NCBI RefSeq assembly: GCF_038396675.1
Contig: NC_088926.1
Span: 25,210,001-25,274,000 of the forward strand
Reading direction: 5' to 3'
Length of the DNA: 64,000 bases
From: Hydra vulgaris
Lineage: Eukaryota; Cnidaria; Hydrozoa; Anthoathecata; Hydridae
The translations under genes and the position numbers were made by a program. Below, one piece after another: positions 11,101 through 62,610 of this stretch. The notes under the pieces were generated by a model that saw only the letters and a program-made list of their open reading frames with translations, was not told the DNA's origin and did no database searches. Within the stretch, counting starts at the first letter, position 1; each line of letters opens with the position of its first letter.

Positions 11101-12470
11101 TTAGTTTGTGTGATAAATTTGTTGTGTTTGCAAATATTGTGTGATGAATAAACTTATTAAAGACCTGTGAGTTTGAAATTTGAGTCAAGTTTAAAAACTT
11201 TAAATAATCACATATCATACAAGAGCACTGAAACTTTTACTGTAAAGAAAATGGTTATTTTTTAGAGATTTTTTATGACTGTTAGGGGGTCCCAAAAAAC
11301 ATAATTTCAAAATTGTTGAATCTCACTATCCAAAAAGACAATAAACACTACTTTTTTAGGGGTAGTCTATTTTTTGACATGTTTATAACTTACCTAAGCA
11401 AATTTTATTTGTGGGAAAATTAAATTTTGTATCAAAATAAACTATTTATACCAACAAGATTTCCATAACGCACAAAAACACGAAAATCAGTATCAGATGG
11501 AACTAAACCAGCTTCAAATATTTCTTGGGCAACAACTGAAGCAAATGGATATTTTGCTGAAGAAGCATACAACTGTAGTATCCAGGGATGGTCTGGACCA
11601 GTCTGAAACACAAATTCCCTTCCACCTTAAAAAAAAATTAATTGCAATATAAAACAAAAGTAAAGAAGAATAACAAACTTTAAAATAATAAAAGCTGTTA
11701 AACATAATATTAACAGACATACCTGAACCAGCAGCTTCTAAGTTAACAACAGCTTTCACCAAAGGAAACCATTTATGTTCTAAAACAAAGCCATGACTTC
11801 CTGCAAGACCGCCCTCTTCAGCACCATTAAACAAAAAAATTATTCCATACTTCAACTTTTCAGGATCACTTAATGCAATGCATCGCAAAACCTCTAATAA
11901 AACAGCACAACTTACACCATCATCGCTTGCACCTTCTGTGCCCATAACTGTATCAAAATGAGCATTTGCTAATAAATATGTATCAGTAGGATTTGATGAA
12001 ATCTTTACTAAAACATTTGTAATATTTTCATAAGTGCTTGTGAAAGCAACAATCTTTTGTACAAAAGCAAAGGACCCGGATACAGTTTGTAAATCAATCT
12101 CAATATTAAAACCTTTGTTAGCTTCATCTTTGATAGCATTTAATTTTTTTATAAGTAGGTTCACTGCTTCTACATCACTTTCGTAGCTTCCAGCAACACG
12201 ATGACCAATTCTAGTCAAATCATATAAGTGCTTTTGGGCTCGAAATCCGCTAAAAGTATGGTTTTCAGTCGTTAAATTTTTTGGATCAGGAAGAAATAAA
12301 TCAGATACTCTAACACTGTATACGACAGCAGACACTGATAGCACGATTATCAAAAAATGAACTGGGCCATAAAAATGTTTTTGATTGTTCAATTGTTTAT
12401 GATTAGACTTTTTGTCCAAATAGCTATCGCCTCGATTTTGTTCACGAACCTTTCGTTGGCGAACAAACAT
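5108..12470 (-). CDS. ERMP1: Endoplasmic reticulum metallopeptidase 1 (M28 family), 5' half, four exons
   Basis: Exons on the minus strand are 11723-12470, 11452-11625, 7075-7383 and 5108-5337. All have GT-AG borders and join in frame to about 487 residues. Vertebrate ERMP1 is about 900, so the C-terminal half lies left of the window. A basic N-terminus precedes a transmembrane segment at about 33-56. The lumenal zinc peptidase domain follows, with M28 signatures: ANAHFDT (H171), ASDDG (D183), FNGAEEG (catalytic E218, ligand E219), NLEAAGSG (E245) and [10 protein letters not shown] (H321). Exons 3 and 4 add several membrane helices. The family is an ER-membrane metallopeptidase whose domain faces the lumen. 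All expected metal ligands are present, so the enzyme looks active. The start ATG at 12470 has A at -3 and is the first in the exon. Introns are swollen by repeats. Splice positions are inferred from sequence only. Confidence 0.93.
6842..6932. repeat. (TATG)n microsatellite
   Basis: About 22 tetranucleotide units with two TGCA interruptions near the right end. It lies inside the ERMP1 intron between exons 3 and 4. Confidence 0.97.
7836..7871. repeat. Short hairpin in an ERMP1 intron
   Basis: Perfect 14-bp arms (ATATCATAAGTTTT and its complement) around an 8-nt spacer. It lies in the intron between exons 2 and 3. No function is suggested by its surroundings. Confidence 0.8.
8281..8870. repeat. 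AT-rich minisatellite, alternating 15/16-bp units
   Basis: Units of AACATTTAAATATAT (15) and AACATTTAAATATAAT (16) alternate for nearly 600 bp, giving a 31-bp higher-order period. A recurrent variant has AACATATAAATATAT. The array sits in the largest visible ERMP1 intron. The unit holds the palindrome ATTTAAAT, so single strands could fold. Confidence 0.97.
10320..11050 (+). pseudogene. Degenerate transposase-like relic
   Basis: Plus-strand frames hold pieces that look protein-derived although heavily broken. They are [53 protein letters not shown], then [16 protein letters not shown] and [17 protein letters not shown]. The last two resemble the block LHWDGKLLPD..... followed by an RLPI.VSG-like segment in a DDE-type transposase family of invertebrates. 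That family assignment is a weak inference from memory. The relic lies inside the ERMP1 intron, in the antisense direction to the gene. Confidence 0.35.
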
Positions 12471-12720
12471 TTTAACGTACTAATATAAATAAGCTAGATG
12501 CGTCTACCCGATCTAAAAACGTCAATTAAGTCAATTTCTGCTAAGTTACGCAAACCAAAGAAAGTTGAGAAATTTCACCGCTCAAAAGAAAATCTGCTTC
12601 AGCTTCGATAGCAGATAGTATCTTATCTAGATTAGATAGCTAGATAGTATCTAATCTATACTAGATAACTAAATCTGCTTCAGCTATCTATCTAAATAGA
12701 TACCTAAATCAAAGTTACTA
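12471..12720 (-). promoter_or_regulatory. Putative ERMP1 promoter region with clustered AGATA/TATCT motifs
   Basis: Immediately upstream of the ERMP1 start, 12605-12705 holds many copies of AGATAG/CTATCT and two copies of AAATCTGCTTCAGCT. AGATA is the core GATA-factor site, but the cluster could equally be a decayed microsatellite. No clear TATA box is placed. The mRNA start is unknown, and trans-splicing of a leader is possible in Hydra. Confidence 0.25.
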
Positions 12721-13995: not shown

Positions 13996-14694
13996 AACTC
14001 TGGTTCTAAGAAACCATTCTTATAAGCAGTAAAACATTGAACACACAGAATAATAATAAAAAAAGCTATAAGTTTTACCCGCACTAAATTGTCCATTCTG
14101 CAGGGGTGGGTGGTCCATTCTGCAGGGGTGGGTGGGGAGAAGTGAATATAAAAATAATTGTAGAATAATTTGAATATTCTTTATATAATGCATGTACTGC
14201 ACCAAACAAGTTTTAACAAATAAAGCATCATTTCAGGCACCAATTCCATTTCCTAAGATTAACAGTTGGTAAAAACAAAGTATATATATAATTTTGATTT
14301 TAAAGAAACCGTGCCGTTGGAGTCAAGTATAACTATTAATAAATTTATAACGTAATCTTCATCAAAATATTTAAGACGTTTCCACATTACACATTTATTT
14401 AATTATTATTGTTTCCACATTACAATTATACAAAAGTTATACAGGAGAAATGAAAGATCATTTAGTTTTCTTTGTCACCCCTAAAATTTGTTTTTGGGGG
14501 TAAAAATGTGGTTTTTATTTTACGCAGGGAGACAAAACGATGCCTGTTCAATAGAGAGGGAAAAATCTCACTGTTTACATTACATAACATAAGTGATCCT
14601 AAACCAAGGGCCGTGCAGAGGATGAGTCGCCCGAGCAAATTGTTCGGGGCCAAAACGAAATTTTTTTTCCTACTCAACTGGAATGGTTTGTCAT

Positions 14695-16115
14695 GGCTGG
14701 TCCCATTCTCTTCCCACTGGAAATGCCAAAAGATACTGAAAATCGCATATTTCCAATGTCAGTTTTGAAAAACAGAATGCCAAATGGGGAATCCTTCTCG
14801 CGAGAATAGCTTGTATTTAGCCAAGTAAAGTCAGCATTATTTTGTTTTCCATGTCTATTATTTTAAATAAGAAATCAAATTCCACACTTGACTTCATCCC
14901 TTGCAGTGATTGGAGGATGGGGATATAGAAAGAAATGAAAAAATCTCTTCAGTCAAAATCCTGAGCATAAACATTCGAATACCCATAAACAATGCTACAT
15001 TCAGTGGCGTAAATTAGAAGCTTAAATAAGAACTGCCAGTTGAACATTTTATGAACTAATTGAACATTTTATGAGTAAATAGAACATTTTATGAATCGTC
15101 AAATCCTCAATGAAGCAGACATCCGGAGCACTAAATAAATTCATTGGCCTTTGTGCAGCTGAGGTTTGCAGGCATTTTATAGAAAAATAAAAGCTTGAAA
15201 ATTTTTTTTTAATTATGTTGGATGCTACTCCTGATGTGAGCCATACTGAACAAACTACGTTTGTCATTATATCTACATGAAAAAGAACCTGGAAAATTTT
15301 TAATTGAAGAGCGGTTTTTGATTAAAACTTTAAAAAAAACTGAGATTAGAGGTACCCTGAAATAAATGAGCTCTTTCAAATGTGTTTTCATGTCTTGAAT
15401 TTGGATGAAAGTCCTCACATTAATTGGCCGCTGCAACCAGGTCATTTAGGCAAGAAAGATAACTATTGATATTGAGGTGGAAAATATTGAGAAGCATTGA
15501 TCAGTCAAATCTATTCGTGAGAAATGGCCAACAATTTTGGAAGAAGCCATATTAGCTGCAGATACTTCAGTTCTGAATTTCCAACCTACAGAAAATTAAC
15601 GTGCCAGAAAATTAAAGTGCCAAAAGAAACAGAATCAGGAGAGTAGGCAACGATTTGGAGAATGGTTTTTTATCACATTCATGATTCTGTAATTGGTGAA
15701 CTTACTGCTTGTTTCACAGCAATTCAAGAAATATTTTCTATATTCTCTTTTTTGTGGGAATATCTAAATGTCTGAAGCAGAAATCAAAAAGTACTTGCTC
15801 CCATTTTTCGCAAAAATATATTTTTGACGTGACTAAAAATGAACTCACTGAAGAATTGCTTCACATAAAACAAATTTATACTGCAAACGTTGGCAAAAAA
15901 TCTCTTGCCCCATTTGACTTATTAAACAAAATTTTTGAAATGAAGCCTGTGGAACTCTTTAGAAATGTAGTGATTGCATTGCGTATTTTTGATTCAATTC
16001 CAGTGACAGTGGCCTCAAGTGAGCATATATTGAAAACTAAGTAAATTTTTTTCAGAAGCTTTTGCAAAACAAAAGATAAGAAAAATAACATTGTAAGAAA
16101 CAAAAGCTGGACTAC
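14695..16115 (+). pseudogene. hAT-derived TTF-finger / DUF4371 protein pseudogene (ZMYM1-like)
   Basis: Landmarks occur in the family order on the plus strand. A TTF-type zinc-finger region gives LKNRMPNGES, FSQ.KSALFCFPCLLF and NSTLDF-like pieces. A DUF4371 (RNase H-like) start gives MLDATPDVSHTEQTTFV, and EEPGKFLIEERFL follows after a frameshift. A long internal deletion comes next. The C-terminal part reads CLKQKSKSTCSHF, NELTEELLHIKQIY, FDLLNKIFEMKPVELFRN and ALRIFDSIPVTVASSEHILK, which is the hAT dimerisation region. Stops and frameshifts are common. Such genes derive from hAT transposases, and this copy is dead. The best-preserved piece is 15709-16044. Confidence 0.8.
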
Positions 16116-16263
16116 TTAATTATACTTATGTACCAGTAATAAAATCAAAAAATTTGAGAAGGCCTTTTTCTTTTTTGGTGTAAGGGGGAGATTGGGCCCT
16201 CAAGCTTAAAGATGCTTGGAGCCCCTTAATACTGTGGCCTTGCCTATACCATTAACAATATAA

Positions 16264-16500: not shown

Positions 16501-17943
16501 CCGCACACGATTTTACGATGTAGTGAAAAAAATAAAAGTGGTAGCTTTTCAGTTTGATAAAGTATTAACAAGTGTTCTACATCTTAATATTTATACTTTT
16601 TCTGGCTAGATTTTTAAAACGCTTTAATTGTATTGTGCTTCTACTTTATGCTTTATAAAAAATTTAAATCAAAAGATTCGAATGGTCTGCTCAAATACTA
16701 TCGTTTACCAAGATCAGAAAGTGTACAAAGAACATATATGATGTTGTTTAAAACAAGTTTATAAAAAGAGAGATTTAATACAGACAATTTGCCAGAAATA
16801 CAAACAATTTGCCAGACATTATTATTTCAGTTAAATAATAAGAAAGAAGATGCAAAAAAACTGACTAGCTAAAGTAAAACTTAAATCAATCATAAAAACA
16901 AAGTGATATGAAGAAACAAAAATAAAATTCAGCAAGAGAAAAATATAGTTATAAAATTTTAAAAGGAACCCTTTATATATATAAATAAAATTTATAAAAA
17001 TATATAAAAATAAAATTTTCAAAATGATAAAATTGATTTTATTTCGAAAAAATTACAATGGCAAAAAAAACTTTAAGTTTTTTATAAATTTTCTTAATGA
17101 TTTTAACATAACAAAACCAGATTGTCAAAATTGACTTTTGACATAACAAAGTTAGATTGCAAAACTTGATTTCAAGATAATTTCAGTTTTTCATTTTCTT
17201 TTAATCGTATATTGAATTTACTGTTTCTTCAACAATTACTAATAAGGTATTAATTTCTTTAATTTAAAAATGTTTGATGTATTGCATCTGTACACTCAAT
17301 CTGTAGCTGGCATTGAACATAAAATTGAAGAAAATTTTCTACTTGTTGTTTATGGCCCAACACAATTAACACAATCTTGAGTTTTCTAGTCTAACAAGCT
17401 TCTTGATAGATCTAATTTATCAAGGCTACAACCATATTTATTGTTGATTAGGTTAATAAAGTATAGGTATTTTTCAACTTTTGCTTTAGAAAGAAGTTTT
17501 TCAAATAATTTACCTTTTTGAATATTTTCTAGATGGCTTAGGCCTCATGTAAAAAACATTCTAGAAAACATTCCAATATACCATAACTTTAAAAGATTTC
17601 CAAAAAAACCAAGTAAATTAGATAGTCAAGCAGCTATAACTTTATGTTTTCTGTAATCGTTCTACATTTTTGTATTTTGTTCTATGCTTATGTAATTAAT
17701 ACTATATCATTTTGGAGCCATGCAGTTATTAAGGTCAATATTTACAATGTCAGTATTAAAGAGTTATCTATTAATGAGAAATATGCTATGCCTTTTAAAC
17801 CATCATATGTTCTTTGTACATCAGTATTTTCAGTTTTATTTCGAAAGATATTAGTGACAATTTTGGTATTATTTTTAAAAGTGTTAGAAGAAGTTTCTTT
17901 ATTATTATAAAGTATTATTATAATTTGAATCTTCCATGAGAGT

Positions 17944-20900
17944 AATTCCACGTCAAAACAACCAGGCCATGCAACCCTATGCCCTTGGATTTTCTTTATA
18001 TTTTTACCATAGTTAGTACATTATAAAATAAGATAAATCCCAAAATTTCAAGGTCTAACTTCCAACGGTTCGTGAGTAATGGTTGCTTTAATTTTGGCTA
18101 CTATTAATGTTTTGGTCATTTACCGCTTTTAAATTTTCATTTCTCGTTATAAAATCAAGTCTTTAAACATGTGAAGTCTAAAAATAAGTGACTTAGTTAA
18201 TCTCAAGGTGAGGAATTTGAATATATAAATAAAATATAGATCATTGTATGTTTGAAGAACATTGTGTGAAAAAATCATTTCTGCCAAATACATAGTTTTG
18301 CAAATATTTTACTTTTTGTACTATAAATGTATATATATTGCCATGGTAATTTACGAAAAAAGATAATTCCTATCTAAATCGAAGTGTTTCTTAAGTTTCT
18401 TAAGTTTTTTTAATATATTTTTATATTTCCTTTTTGTTTCCTTGTCTTTCCAAATCATTAAAGTTTAATTGTTGAATTCAGACATATTCATTTAATGTAA
18501 ATATTGCAATTAATCCTACATAATAATGTAATTAGTACTTGTGCATTTTTAAATTTGCAAGTATAACATTTTTTAATTCATTATCAAAATGATTTCATTT
18601 GATATTGGTAAAGAATTGAAGTCAGAATGCCATAAAACCTCATATTCTAGAAATAAGGAAATTTTTTTACTACATGACTTAGACACCGATATTCGTCAAA
18701 ACATTTTATGGAGATCTGAGTTGCGTGCTTGTGAAGAACTATTCAGCATTTGTAATCACCATTTTCACTACTTTGAAAAAAGATTTGAATAAAAAAAGGC
18801 AATTGTTATGATGTTTATAAAGTGCATAAAAAAATAAATAAAAGGTAATTTGATTTCAAATATATGAATACTATCTGTAAAAGTATACAACACGTATCTT
18901 AAATATCCTTTTTTTAAAGGTAAATTTACAATATCTTTAATGTTGGCTAGACACTTTGAGTCATTAGGATTAAGAGTTTTACCTGGGTGGAAGTTATATA
19001 CTAGCTGTAAGTCAAAGGCAGTTTTATCAGTAGAACACCCTAGTGAAAATGGAGTAGATGAAATATTGATAGAAGAAGATGAACCATTTACTCATATTAA
19101 TTTATCCCTGGAAGTTTTAGGAGAACCATCTATTAATTTACATTCTGTTGCTTTACATTAACGTGTTGCATCTGCAAGGAAAAAATATAAAAAACCAATA
19201 AAAAAGATTGGTGAAGATTTAGCAGCTCATTATGGAATAAGTAATTTGCATTTTATAGATAATTCTATTGCGTCTTATTCGAAAAAGATCAAAGTAAAGC
19301 ATCTGATCTGGATAAACTGACACTATTGATGAAAGAAAAGATAAATGCTTCTGACTATAAAAATAAATTAAAAGTTCTCACTTTAACTCCTGAATCTTGG
19401 TCTAGAGACTACGCTTCTAACTACTTTAAAGTTAGTGTGAATGCTATTTGAACAGCACGTTGTATGAAACAGGAGAGTGGCATACTTTTACTCCCACTGG
19501 ACAAAATAGGAGAAAGTGTTGTCTCCATTGTTCAAAGTTTTTATGAAGATGATGAATACTCATGAACAATGTCTAATAAAAAAGATTATGTAAGTGTTGG
19601 AGAAGGAAAAAATAACAGAATACAAGTACAAAAACGATTGCTGTTGTGTAACCTGAAAGAATTGTACACCCAATTTTAAGTTATAAATCCAGGAATTAAT
19701 CTTAGAATTTCTAAACTTTGCAGTCTGCGTCCTAAGTGATGTGTAAGTGTTGGAGCCTCAGCTGCTCACTCAGTGTGGGTATGTGTTTATCATCAAAATG
19801 CAGTTCTTCTTTTATATGCAATGAAATGGGATATAACTTATAAACATTTAATGAAAGAGGTTTGTTTTCAGTTATAAGTGTGTTTAATGTACGCTATAAG
19901 TTAGGAAATCTAAAAAAAGATATCAGTTTATACAAAATTTAAATTTGATATTACTTATACTTTTAATTATTATTATCATGATTTTAGTTATTATTATGAT
20001 TATTTAATGATTATAATAGAAAATTTAATAGTAAATTATAGTAAATAAACTTGTTTTTTAGGTGGTTTGTGACATTTCAAAAAATGAGTGTATGGTTCAT
20101 AGATGTTTGAGTTGCCCAGGAACAGATGTCTTACAACTATTTCTTCTTGAAGAGCTTGAAGAACTTGATTTTGATGACGAGTTAAGTTTTAATCAATGGC
20201 AAGGTACTGACAGGACCCAACTCGTCACACAAACTGAAACTGTTGAAACATATAGAGTTAGTAGTGAAGTGTATTGATGAACTAACAGCTCACTCGTATA
20301 TTTCTAATTGCCAAACAAAGTTTCTTAAAGATTTAAAATTCAAATTGAATGAAAAAGTGTGACTTTTCAAAAAATTATGAATTTGTTGTGCAAGATGAGA
20401 TCCAAAGTTATCATTGGTGTAAATCTGGATGCACCCTTCACCCAGTTGTTTTATCCTATAAAGTAAATGGCATTATTTTACACGAATCATTTTGTTTTAT
20501 GTCTGACGATGCGATACACAATACCTGTTTTGTCTATCAAAATCAGACTATTTTATGTAATTATATCAAAGAAACCCTTCCTTTAATTTTCAAATTGTAT
20601 AACTTTTCTGATAGATGTGGAGGACAGTATAAAAGTTATAAAAATTTTCTAAATCTATGCCATCACTCAGAAGATTTTTTATTGGAAGCTGAATGGATAT
20701 TTTTTGCAACCAGTCACGGCAAATCTTCTTGCGATGCAATAGGCGGTACAGTAAAACGAACAATAGCAAGAGAAAGTCTGCAACGTCCAAAGAAAAATAA
20801 AATACTAACAATCGATGGAATGTTTGAATTTTGCACTCAAAAATGCTCACAATAAAGTTCTTTAAAATTGATAAAGAAACTATGGTTAATGTTAAAGCTA

Positions 20901-21986
20901 CGCAAAATAAATGATTTGAGAAGGGAAAAACAATACCAGGAACTCGAGGATTTCACCATTGCATACCAGTTTCGAAAACATCTATATTATTTAAAAAAAC
21001 TAGTAACGATATAAATCTATTAATATAACTAAATCTATTAATATAACTAAAAAATCAAGTTACCAAAATTTAAGTTTAATAAGTTTTGATCTAATGCAGT
21101 AGTACGAATATTACGCATGTACATATGACTCGTTTTGGTGAATTGCAGTTGTCGAAGAAAAAGATGAAGAATTTAATGATATAAAAATAAAGTTTATGCA
21201 TCCACACGGTCCATCTGAACAGTTTTTCTGGCCGAAAAGGGAGGATAATCGTTGGATACCAATCACTAATGTAATAACATTCATAAGTGCACCAACAATA
21301 ATATCAGACAAGTATGAACTTTTAAAAAAAGATTTTTACAAAATTAATAAGTATATATTTGTAAATCAATAATTTTTTAATGGATATATTATAAAAAATT
21401 GTATATCAATTCAAGTATGCATCATTTTTATTTATTTTGAATACTACGATAAGCAAAATATACTATATTTGCTTTTTTTGTAATATTTTTTATTTAATTT
21501 TTAAACTATGTATTTGGCAGTAATGATTTTTTTACACAATGTTCTTCAAACATACAATGATCTAATTTGAAATTTTAAGCCTAAAAAACTTACCGCACAC
21601 CTAAAAATTTTACTGGGGCAGGTGTCCATTATTCTACCATTTGTAATTGATATTTAGGTACTTTTTAATTATAAAATAAGTTTTTTATTTATATATTCAA
21701 ATTCCTCACCTTGAGATTAACTAAGTCACTTATTTTTAGAATTCACATGTTTAAAGACTTGGTTTTATAAGGAGAAATGTAAATTAAAAAATGGCAGAAA
21801 ATGACCAAAACAATAATAGTAGCCAAAATTAAAGCAACCATTACTCACGAACCGTTGAGAGTCAGACCTTGAAATTTTGGGATTTATCTTATTTTATAAT
21901 GTACTAACTATGGTAAAAATATAAAGAAAATCCAAGAACATAGGGTTGCATTTAAAAAAAAAAATTGGTTGTTTTGACGTGGAATT
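17944..21986 (+). mobile_element. DNA transposon with long terminal inverted repeats
   Basis: The left TIR (17944-18297) and right TIR (21494-21986) are inverted copies, starting from AATTCCACGTCAAAACAACC at each end. The right TIR carries about 125 bp absent from the left (within 21562-21690). Shared blocks include TTACCATAGTTAGTACATTA, CTTTAAACATGTGAA and AACATTGTGTGAAAAAATCA. CATGAG occurs just outside both ends (17935-17940, with three bases AGT between it and the TIR; 21987-21992). It is a candidate target duplication. The interior holds one degraded multi-exon gene on the plus strand. TIR length and gene content do not match Tc1, hAT or PIF. A Sola-like or unnamed DDE group is possible. 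Confidence 0.85.
18589..21372 (+). pseudogene. Transposase-like gene of an uncharacterised invertebrate TE family, degraded
   Basis: Four exon-like blocks lie between the TIRs. Block 1 (18589-18792) reads SFDIGKELKSECHKTSYS and WRSELRACEELFSICNHHFH. Block 2 (about 18920-19860) reads LPGWKLYTSCKSKAVLSVE, EVLGEPSINLHSVALH, then a TAA where CAA (Gln) is expected, RVASARKKY, ESWSRDYASNYFKVS, CSLRPK and HSVWVCVYHQNAVLL. Block 3 (20062-20855) reads NECMVHRCLSCPG, QWQGTDRTQLVTQTETVE, VVQDEIQSYHWCKSGCTLHP, FSDRCGGQYKSYKNFLNLCH and EWIFFATSHGKSSCDAIGG. Block 4 (about 21085-21372) reads KFMHPHGPSEQFFWPKRED. The Asp/Glu residues in SDD, FSD and AEW are candidate DDE acids (inference). I recognise the family as a recurrent uncharacterised protein of invertebrate genomes. 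Several stops and frameshifts make this copy inactive. Confidence 0.75.
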
Positions 21987-21992
21987 CATGAG

Positions 21993-25374: not shown

Positions 25375-25559
25375 AATGACTTACTATATGCAAATTTTTA
25401 TATTACTTTGTAAAAATAAAGTTAATTTAATTTGTTTAGATGAACTTGCTTTACAGAGGATCAGTCAGTTATATCCCTATTATTTGAATTAATTTAGTAT
25501 TTAGTCATTTACTATTAGTTATCAAATACAGTTCTTTATCAAATACAGTTCTTAGATCA

Positions 25560-26058
25560 AAAAAGAATAGGACTGTCGACTATCTAGACACTCTAGATTT
25601 AAGTTTAAGAGAAAAGATTGTTAAATGGTCAATTAATGTAGCACGTAAAAACAGATTTACAAATCAACTCTATCGATGCAAAGTAGGAGATGAGATTTGC
25701 AAAAGACAAAAAATCAAGCGCCAAAAAATGGATGAAAAAGAAAAAAGAAAGTTAGAGCGTGACCTATCTAAATTAAATTTTGAAGAGATTATTAATTCAT
25801 ATAAGCACTTATCCAATGACCAACTATTTGATTTAGAAGATGTCATGTCAGATAGAATTGTTGGGAAGAAACTAGAACATGAATGGTACGATCCAAAGAC
25901 ATGCAAAAGTGTTTTATATCGCGGCAGAGTAAAAAAAGTTAATAAAAGAAAAAATGACTTCATTTACACCATTTCTTACTGGAAAGATGATGAAACTGAT
26001 AATGAAGCTGTTGACTATTGCATGAAAAAGATCCAGCTTGCTGCTGATGTTGTTTCCG
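25560..26058 (+). CDS. Element-type protein exon with Tudor/SH3-like fold candidate
   Basis: This is an open frame of about 165 codons beginning near NRTVDYLDTLDLSLREKIVK (25579). Pieces include KWSINVARKNRFTNQLYRCK, a lysine/glutamate-rich helix RQKMDEKEKRKLERDLSK and GKKLEHEWYDPKTCKSVLYR. It closes with GRVKKVNK, then YTISYWKDDETDNEA and MKKIQLAADV. The last 60 residues have the pattern of a Tudor/chromo-barrel module: a hydrophobic strand, GxV, Y.I.YW and an acidic turn. That is inference from pattern. An ideal donor CCG|GTGAGT ends the exon at 26058, so the protein continues after an intron holding a minisatellite. The frame is intact and coding-like. I know similar sequences only as uncharacterised cnidarian repeat-associated proteins, and no function is known. 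Confidence 0.55.
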
Positions 26059-26088
26059 GTGAGTTACAATTTAATTAATTTAATAACA

Positions 26089-61440: not shown

Positions 61441-62493
61441 TTAATAATGTTTTTTATGTTTTGGAGCATTATAAAGTTTGTTTTCATTCATATTAATCAT
61501 GCGGGTAAACATTTTGGTAAACTCTCTCACCCAAAGAGCGTTATCGCGTGCATACTGTTTTGCATATTTATGAGCTGTCGAATGTTGGCAACGTGTTTTT
61601 GAAGAAGTAGGTGTGCAGGAAACAGAACCGTTATCGTCAGTTGGTTTAATAATCCATGAATTAGCCATATCAACGTTTAGAAGTATTGGTACTCTGTTTG
61701 GTTTAGGAAGCTTATCGTTTGGTGTTGTATGAGTTATTTCCTGCCATTGTTTATTTTTATCATTAATGGTTACTTGCAACCAAGGCACTATATCAATAAA
61801 CATTCTGTAATACGCGTTGTCAAGCACACTTGTTGGAGCTAAAGAACCATTTGGTACTGTCGAAAACCGCTCATCAACCCAAGATCCAACAAAACCCACA
61901 TTTTCTAAATGACAACCACCTAAGGTATGTGCTCCTAAAAGAGTTACCGCTTCTCTTGTATTGAATCCAAACTCTTCTTTAAAAAATTTAAATGTGTCTT
62001 GTGTACTTTCTGTTCCCTTAATAAATCTATATGGTCCAGAATCATCTTCTATTGGCGAAGTAGCGCAATCTTTTCTACCAACTTTAAAATGGTTTAACCC
62101 ATTGTATTTAACCGGAGCTTCAACAGTAGATCTAGTGAGAGCAACGGATGCAGCTAAAGCATAAAAATCTGCTCTTGACATTTTCCCTTTAAATGATGTA
62201 TCGTACAAAGGATCGAGTCGATCTGTAACTTTTTTTAAACCTGCATTTAATGGTCTCGAATGATTAATGCAACCATCACATTTTCCTTGTCCCATACAAT
62301 CATGAAACAGAAGGCGAACGGTTCCAGCAATCATTGGTAAATCTTTATTGTTTTTAACAGACTCTATCAGAGTGAGAATACTAGCTTTTGCTTTTTCTAG
62401 GGTGTCGAATGTTAATAAGTCTTTTCTTCCGAAACTTTGTTTAAAACATACAATCGCAATGCAAACTTTTAGAAGTGTTGTTAAACGAACCAT
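61441..62493 (-). CDS. Secreted plant-type haem peroxidase, intronless
   Basis: One uninterrupted 350-codon frame. Residues 1-22 form a signal peptide (hydrophobic core [11 protein letters not shown]). The distal haem site is [16 protein letters not shown] with R60, F63, H64 and D65. [11 protein letters not shown] follows at 106-116. The proximal site is [21 protein letters not shown] with ligand H189 and W205 sixteen residues on. D275 in LLNVDMA is the likely partner of H189. A conserved C-terminal helix is [16 protein letters not shown]. The family reduces H2O2 while oxidising a donor. The position that carries ascorbate-binding Arg in APX is Asn198 here, as in cytochrome c peroxidase, so ascorbate is not an obvious donor. 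F63 and FHDC resemble secreted class II/III enzymes. Start ATG has A at -3 and G at +4. No close neighbours; possible horizontal acquisition. Confidence 0.92.
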
Positions 62494-62610
62494 TTTAGTT
62501 GTATTTTACACTTTTTATTTTACTTGTTAATATAAAAAATATTATTTTTTATATTATAAACAATATTTTTAAAAAACGATATATATATATATATATATCT
62601 CGTTTTTTTT
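62494..62610 (-). promoter_or_regulatory. Upstream region of the peroxidase gene
   Basis: On the minus strand the 110 bases before the ATG hold a TA tract (62579-62600), TATA-like TATAAT words and an AAAAAG at about -20 that could accept a spliced leader. No element can be assigned firmly. 62745-62805 holds a 31-bp direct duplication. Confidence 0.25.

Follow-up and report, generated by a model that had tools for sequence, protein, structure and literature searches.

A decayed transposon with long terminal inverted repeats in Hydra vulgaris, most likely of the Sola superfamily

Introduction

Sola elements are described as DDD (three-aspartate) transposons that generate 4-bp target-site duplications (TSDs), are mostly 2-9 kb long and have very variable ends, their terminal inverted repeats (TIRs) spanning 11-1124 bp (PMC10741241, in the extract consulted). 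The 4-bp TSDs have been confirmed for amoebozoan Sola2, the target sites of which are AT-rich (extract of PMC3627910), and for Hydra vulgaris AEP a list of 14 putatively active families includes Sola-2 (extract of PMC12220107). Here we describe a transposon copy at positions 17940-21987 of a 64,000-nucleotide stretch of the Hydra vulgaris genome (contig NC_088926.1 of assembly GCF_038396675.1; hereafter the window), and compare it with other copies in the window's own genome (911,502,276 bases in 15 contigs, the window lying at C7:25210001-25274000). The copy is decayed, with long inverted ends and a broken spliced gene, and we regard it as the remains of a cut-and-paste DNA transposon that most likely belongs to the Sola superfamily, probably to Sola-2. 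For a highly repeated Hydra group that lies below the Pfam and NCBIfam cut-offs, the comparison yields the exact ends, the length of the TSD, the structure of the gene and the residues that are candidates for catalysis; if the Sola assignment is right, this would better define a little-studied superfamily and would not add a new one. The element is probably not of a new kind, and we consider it a worthwhile annotation.

Results and discussion

The initial annotation of the window had proposed a DNA transposon in which long TIRs enclose a spliced, unnamed transposase-like gene, and the search of a Hydra genome with the TIR that it suggested has upheld this, yielding full copies with readable 4-bp TSDs in which TIR and gene are linked. 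At 94% identity or above, the left TIR has at least 40 scored matches in the genome (from 545 first-look candidates), and the 168-aa putative catalytic piece of the gene has at least 150 scored matches (4551 candidates). The window copy is a dead member of a transposon family that is highly repeated in Hydra. We fetched the best 30 of the 40 scored TIR loci, shorter or weaker TIR copies lying outside this sample, and all 30 carry gene sequence: 22 of 22 by tblastn, while the other eight overlap a gene-match locus. In the other direction, the TIR is at least partly present at 27 of the 30 best gene loci and is absent within the fetched stretch from L050, L058 and L060. The proposed link of this protein to defined TIRs is therefore sound, and the worry voiced with it, that the TIR might prove a separate repeat occurring without the gene, finds no example among these 30 loci.

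The other copies also correct the ends of the element. The inverted arms first reported (354 and 493 bp) are real, matching at 21 of 21 nt at the tips and then over stretches of 158 nt (95%), 137 nt (86%) and 114 nt (77%), but their exact ends were wrong, since other copies place them further out. In most copies the left tip reads GAGT|AATTCCAYGTC and the right tip GACRTGGAATT|ACTC; because GAGT precedes AATTCC in most of them, the left end of the window element is position 17940, four bases beyond the earlier call, and the right end is 21987, where ACT is gone from ...ATTACTC. The unequal lengths of the two arms arise because about 115 bp are missing from the left arm, a gap seen when the right arm is used as query (1-304 aligned, then 419-484). 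The missing stretch is kept elsewhere, for instance in the copy L006, in which query positions 1-291 align at 1501-1794 and 289-357 at 1909-1976. Elements of this family are 4.0-4.2 kb long, and the copy L034 measures 4182 bp with TIR arms of 478 and 487 bp.

With the tips so placed, the target duplication is 4 bp long. A perfect 4-mer duplication flanks 11 of the 16 gene-bearing copies for which both ends were found (AACT, ATTT, AGAC, ATAT, TAAT, TTAA, TTCG, TGTA, TGTA, ATAT and ACGA; the copy with ATTT has decayed tips), and the window copy, if one allows for its loss of 3 bp, is a twelfth, with ATGA. For this count 11 copies were extended to seek their second end; the one-ended m5, m16, m19, m30 and m32 were excluded, and other one-ended copies, left unextended, also stand outside it. 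A second end was sought for 17 copies of an internally deleted derivative described below and found for 16, of which 14 have a perfect TSD, two of them (L011 and L017) having common flanks and probably representing one insertion. Overall, a perfect 4-bp TSD is seen in 25 of the 32 copies whose two ends were located. A or T makes up 76 of the 100 letters of these 25 duplications, as compared to roughly 72% A+T in the window, and since the two compositions are close we set aside a target-site preference and claim none. The duplication of about 6 bp (CATGAG), or the shorter TGAG, first suggested for the window was not borne out; both were discarded once the copies showed GAGT and ACTC to be element tips, as was, for the same reason, a 9-bp duplication that matches at seven of nine positions if the element is taken to start at AATTCC. 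The three-base offset of the left copy that had been noted is explained by the loss of ACT at the window's right tip.

Empty counterparts exist for two derivative insertions (L008 and L027), both of which sit inside other repeats. The joined flanks of L008 gave 40 scored places, of which 38 cross the junction and two represent the occupied site, and those of L027 likewise gave 40, of which 39 span the junction, the remaining one being the occupied site. In four aligned empty copies of the L008 target the 4-mer is present once and there is no gap at the junction, length differences falling elsewhere; the 4-mer is AACT in these empty copies and GACT at the occupied site. Judged by eye, the L008 target appears to resemble a reverse-transcriptase gene. 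Given empty sites, TSDs directly outside the TIRs and the gene in every one of the 30 best TIR loci, we attach practically no probability to the reading that the TIRs are an unrelated repeat flanking a host gene, in favour of which we found no point.

The length of the duplication also bears on which superfamily is concerned. Elements of the hAT and P types duplicate 8 bp, unlike the 4 bp seen here, and piggyBac and Kolobok elements are not known to duplicate anything but TTAA, which is just one of our 25 perfect TSDs. Duplications of 4 bp occur in Ginger, Chapaev (CMC) and Academ, the last of which has its own transposase with further domains. This common length is what speaks for placing the family in one of these or in another named superfamily with 4-bp TSDs, a placement that we nevertheless hold to be very improbable: there is no integrase domain among the Pfam matches of six related proteins at E values up to 1, while Ginger carries a Gypsy-like integrase (extract of PMC10741241), and the DUF1280 model, which represents the Chapaev transposase (extract of PMC3985635), had no match in the Pfam search of the same six proteins. 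Mutator-like elements (MULEs) share the long TIRs, but they duplicate 7-12 bp (extract of PMC10741241) as compared to 4 bp here, and no MULE domain was found in the Pfam search.

The gene of the window element consists of three exons, all coordinates of which are given in Table 1, and is disrupted by stops and frameshifts. Exon 1 has counterparts in all six other elements searched for it (L034, L062, L063, L064, L065 and L067). In L034 and L035 exon 3 holds an open frame of 441 aa, and the exon 2 frame is open in L035 and L037, with an early stop in L034; of six copies of the window's subfamily that were translated, L035 thus has both exon 2 and the 441-aa exon 3 open, and those other than L034 and L035 have at least one break each. 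Intron 2 is present in the window's subfamily, unlike the other Hydra subfamilies examined, in which the frame continues through its position (L061-L067).

The open frames of relatives comprise 732-776 aa. Three aspartates, D446 (in GDF), D529 (in SDGC or TDGC) and D570 (in SHGKSxCDGIGG), are invariant in four of four long frames (our alignment A2, numbered after L063), and their spacing is D...83-85...D...41...D in all seven sequences that cover the region. The motifs FSDRCGGQYK and SHGKSSCDAIGG, which had been put forward as catalytic candidates, fall within this likely core as its second and third conserved acidic blocks, and the first block, CDFSKNYEF, absent from that proposal, can now be added. 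The order of likely strands and helices around the aspartates suggests an RNase H fold; as we read the alignment, strand one would carry the first aspartate, the second would come after strand four, and the third would sit on the helix that follows strand five.

Searches with the protein gave no named family. In Pfam no family reached the cut-off with seven pieces from the window or six relatives, the matches being weak, short and mutually unrelated; as a control, the same library did recognise a peptidase and a peroxidase in other parts of the window. In NCBIfam no family reached the cut-off with four relatives, and the sub-threshold matches were weak. Over 15 residues, the N-terminal region weakly matches a zinc finger of VAL1, with 21.1 bits against a cut-off of 27 (E 0.00029). 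Profiles of Protein Data Bank (PDB) chains gave weak matches alone (6ynx_d at E 0.17 and 0.047, 8bdk_A at E 1). No relatives were found in viral contigs (two scans), GTDB genomes (one scan) or plasmids, phage records lying outside this search. The contig scans were seeded with short peptide patterns, which distant relatives may escape, and as these collections represent viruses, bacteria and archaea, they are silent on animal relatives. Literature searches with the strings ATSHGK and FATSHG, and with 'Sola transposon' combined with 'Hydra', returned no paper.

The same architecture recurs in other Hydra subfamilies. Seven divergent loci (L061-L067) were fetched and five of these extended outward, and four of the five have inverted repeats of 664, 748, 777 and 829 bp (the last two lengths including a few flanking bases), TSDs of 4 bp (AACA, TAAG, TATA and TAAT) and tips reading GGGC or GGGT; two of the loci, L065 and L067, are closely related. 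In the fifth, L064, the arms of the inverted repeat measure 1263 and 1243 bp and the right tip ends ...GGAATTACCC, but its TSD is unreadable because the left tip is lost. Tips of the GRGY type are thus kept among subfamilies at about 50% protein identity; Sola2 tips read GRG...CYC. At L061 a TIR was looked for within the fetched stretch and none was found. L066 is rearranged, with an inverted duplication, perfect over at least 1106 bp, that runs through the transposase frame and reaches the end of the fetched stretch, which might represent a recent rearrangement or an assembly artefact. As a separate observation, a further repeat, GGGGCAYRKGCCCCAC, occurs in both orientations within the long inverted repeat of the L064 subfamily (L064, L107 and L108).

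We favour the Sola superfamily because the 4-bp TSDs, the putative DDD triad and the long TIRs fit the traits described for it. The TSD length is common to 25 of 32 copies, to four of the five extended loci of other subfamilies and to the empty sites; the arms and total length of L034, and the 664-829 bp repeats of four further loci, fall within the Sola ranges; and the three conserved aspartates stand in a plausible order and spacing. To call the gene unnamed was right in so far as it falls short of the cut-off of every Pfam and NCBIfam model, but the traits of the element match those of a superfamily that has been described. To our knowledge Pfam holds no Sola model, and its silence therefore does not separate Sola from a separate superfamily.

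Several observations weigh against this assignment or against the features on which it draws. The arms of L064 are somewhat longer than 1124 bp, the top of the published range for Sola TIRs, and the target sites here (TTCG, CGGG and CGAG, for instance) are less AT-rich than those of amoebozoan Sola2, so far as the extract of PMC3627910 describes them. Of the gene-bearing pairs of ends, four of 16 are mismatched (m7, m15, m28 and m50, with left ends decayed or weakly alike), and two of the 16 derivative pairs have no perfect TSD, L005 matching at three of four bases and L010 showing no match. Many residues besides the three aspartates are equally invariant in alignment A2, so the triad is a reading of that alignment and not a test of it, and a single-sequence structure model of the catalytic piece was unusable (mean predicted local distance difference test score, pLDDT, 32.9). 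The assignment, which we consider probable, follows the traits published for Sola elements. A profile comparison with DUF7869, finally, was non-significant, as set out next.

Alternatively, the family might be a superfamily of its own, that is, a formally undescribed, non-Sola DDD transposase with 4-bp TSDs. Points in its favour are the absence of any Pfam family (six proteins) or NCBIfam family (four proteins) at cut-off, of relatives in viral contigs, GTDB genomes and plasmids, and of a convincing PDB chain; we think it unlikely, however, given that the measurable traits match those described for Sola (extract of PMC10741241), that Sola-2 is reported as putatively active in Hydra vulgaris AEP (extract of PMC12220107), that Pfam silence is uninformative here and that the collections searched were viral and prokaryotic. 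One form of this alternative concerns DUF7869 (PF25273), which is also repeated in the window's genome (at least 150 scored matches, 865 candidates). Its blocks D-[FY]-A, [DE]-N-C-x-G and H-T-K-F-x-P-D have counterparts in the same order here (D-F-[AST]-E-N, D-G-C and S-H-G-K-x-x-C-D), and the spacings are near, at 79-80 residues between the first two aspartates (three of five DUF7869 rows, the first block not being found in two) as compared to 83-85 here (seven of seven), and at 42 (five of five rows) as compared to 41 here (seven of seven) between the second and third. We rejected a profile link, as the comparison gave E 0.1 and 61 of 150 shuffles of the columns did equally well, which leaves agreement in block order and spacing alone. 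There is only a small chance, in our judgement, of a separate DDD superfamily with 4-bp TSDs, long TIRs, GRGY tips and a Cys/His-rich N-terminus that shares the catalytic-block layout of DUF7869; if this were true, a single transposase lineage would have as its branches two highly repeated Hydra protein families that carry no functional name.

Returning to the Sola reading, an intact element would encode one spliced transposase, of which the Cys/His-rich N-terminus would probably bind DNA and the central RNase-H-like domain, through its three aspartates, would probably cut and join it. Presumably the enzyme binds the long inverted ends (GRGY...), excises the element and reinserts it elsewhere in cut-and-paste fashion, and insertion with a 4-bp stagger, at sites without evident preference, would give rise to the 4-bp duplication.

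A deletion derivative bears on how the family moves. Relative to the 4182-bp L034, a 711-bp deletion is common to 18 of the 30 TIR loci and removes the greater part of intron 2 together with about 179 residues at the start of exon 3, including the first conserved aspartate. Seventeen of the 18 copies (L022, which carries a further deletion, was left out) have a median pairwise identity of 98.9% (range 95.4-100%) over about 1.8 kb, and the derivative has thus spread recently. Because it cannot make a complete enzyme, intact relatives most likely mobilised its copies in trans, and a derivative without a presumed catalytic residue offers a natural test of such movement. Two derivatives, L009 and L010, have the same right flank and different left flanks and are identical across the 1.8 kb compared, which could reflect recombination between copies or a later rearrangement.

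Features of the locus and its surroundings

Table 1. Coordinates in the window of the parts of the element, its target duplication and neighbouring features.
Feature	Position	Strand	Description	Basis
TSD, left copy	17936..17939	.	ATGA	window sequence and ends of other copies
Left TIR	17940..18300	+	starts GAGTAATTCCACGTC; about 115 bp of inner part missing	alignment of arms and other copies
Exon 1	18589..18844	+	N-terminal Cys/His-rich segment; window frame ends at 18790-18792	3' edge inferred from GT donor
Intron 1	18845..18919	+	GT...AG	read from sequence, inferred from homologous junctions
Exon 2	18920..19859	+	remaining N-terminal region; stops and frameshift in window	tblastn 18910-19865
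Intron 2	19860..20061	+	GT...AG; without counterpart in L061-L067	
Exon 3	20062..21372	+	putative catalytic region and C-terminal domain; frameshifts in window	
Longest open piece	20349..20855	+	168 aa; three acidic blocks CDFSKNYEF, FSDRCGGQYK and SHGKSSCDAIGG	
Right TIR	21503..21987	-	485 bp, near full length; outermost ...ATTACTC without ACT	arms and other copies
TSD, right copy	21988..21991	.	ATGA	window sequence and ends of other copies
Peptidase-like frame	11514-12479	-	exon-like, 321 aa	Pfam search
Putative transposon remains	~14600-16200		perhaps hAT-type	by eye
Open frame	25488-26078	+	196 aa	
Peroxidase-like frame	61441-62505	-	uninterrupted, 354 aa	Pfam search

Elsewhere in the window, what look by eye like the remains of another transposon lie upstream of the element, and further upstream an exon-like frame matches Peptidase_M28 (E 3.8e-26). 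The 196-aa open frame downstream has no Pfam match at E values up to 0.01. Near the right end of the window, an uninterrupted frame in this animal genome matches the Pfam peroxidase family PF00141 (E 4.7e-24), the plant-type haem peroxidase family.

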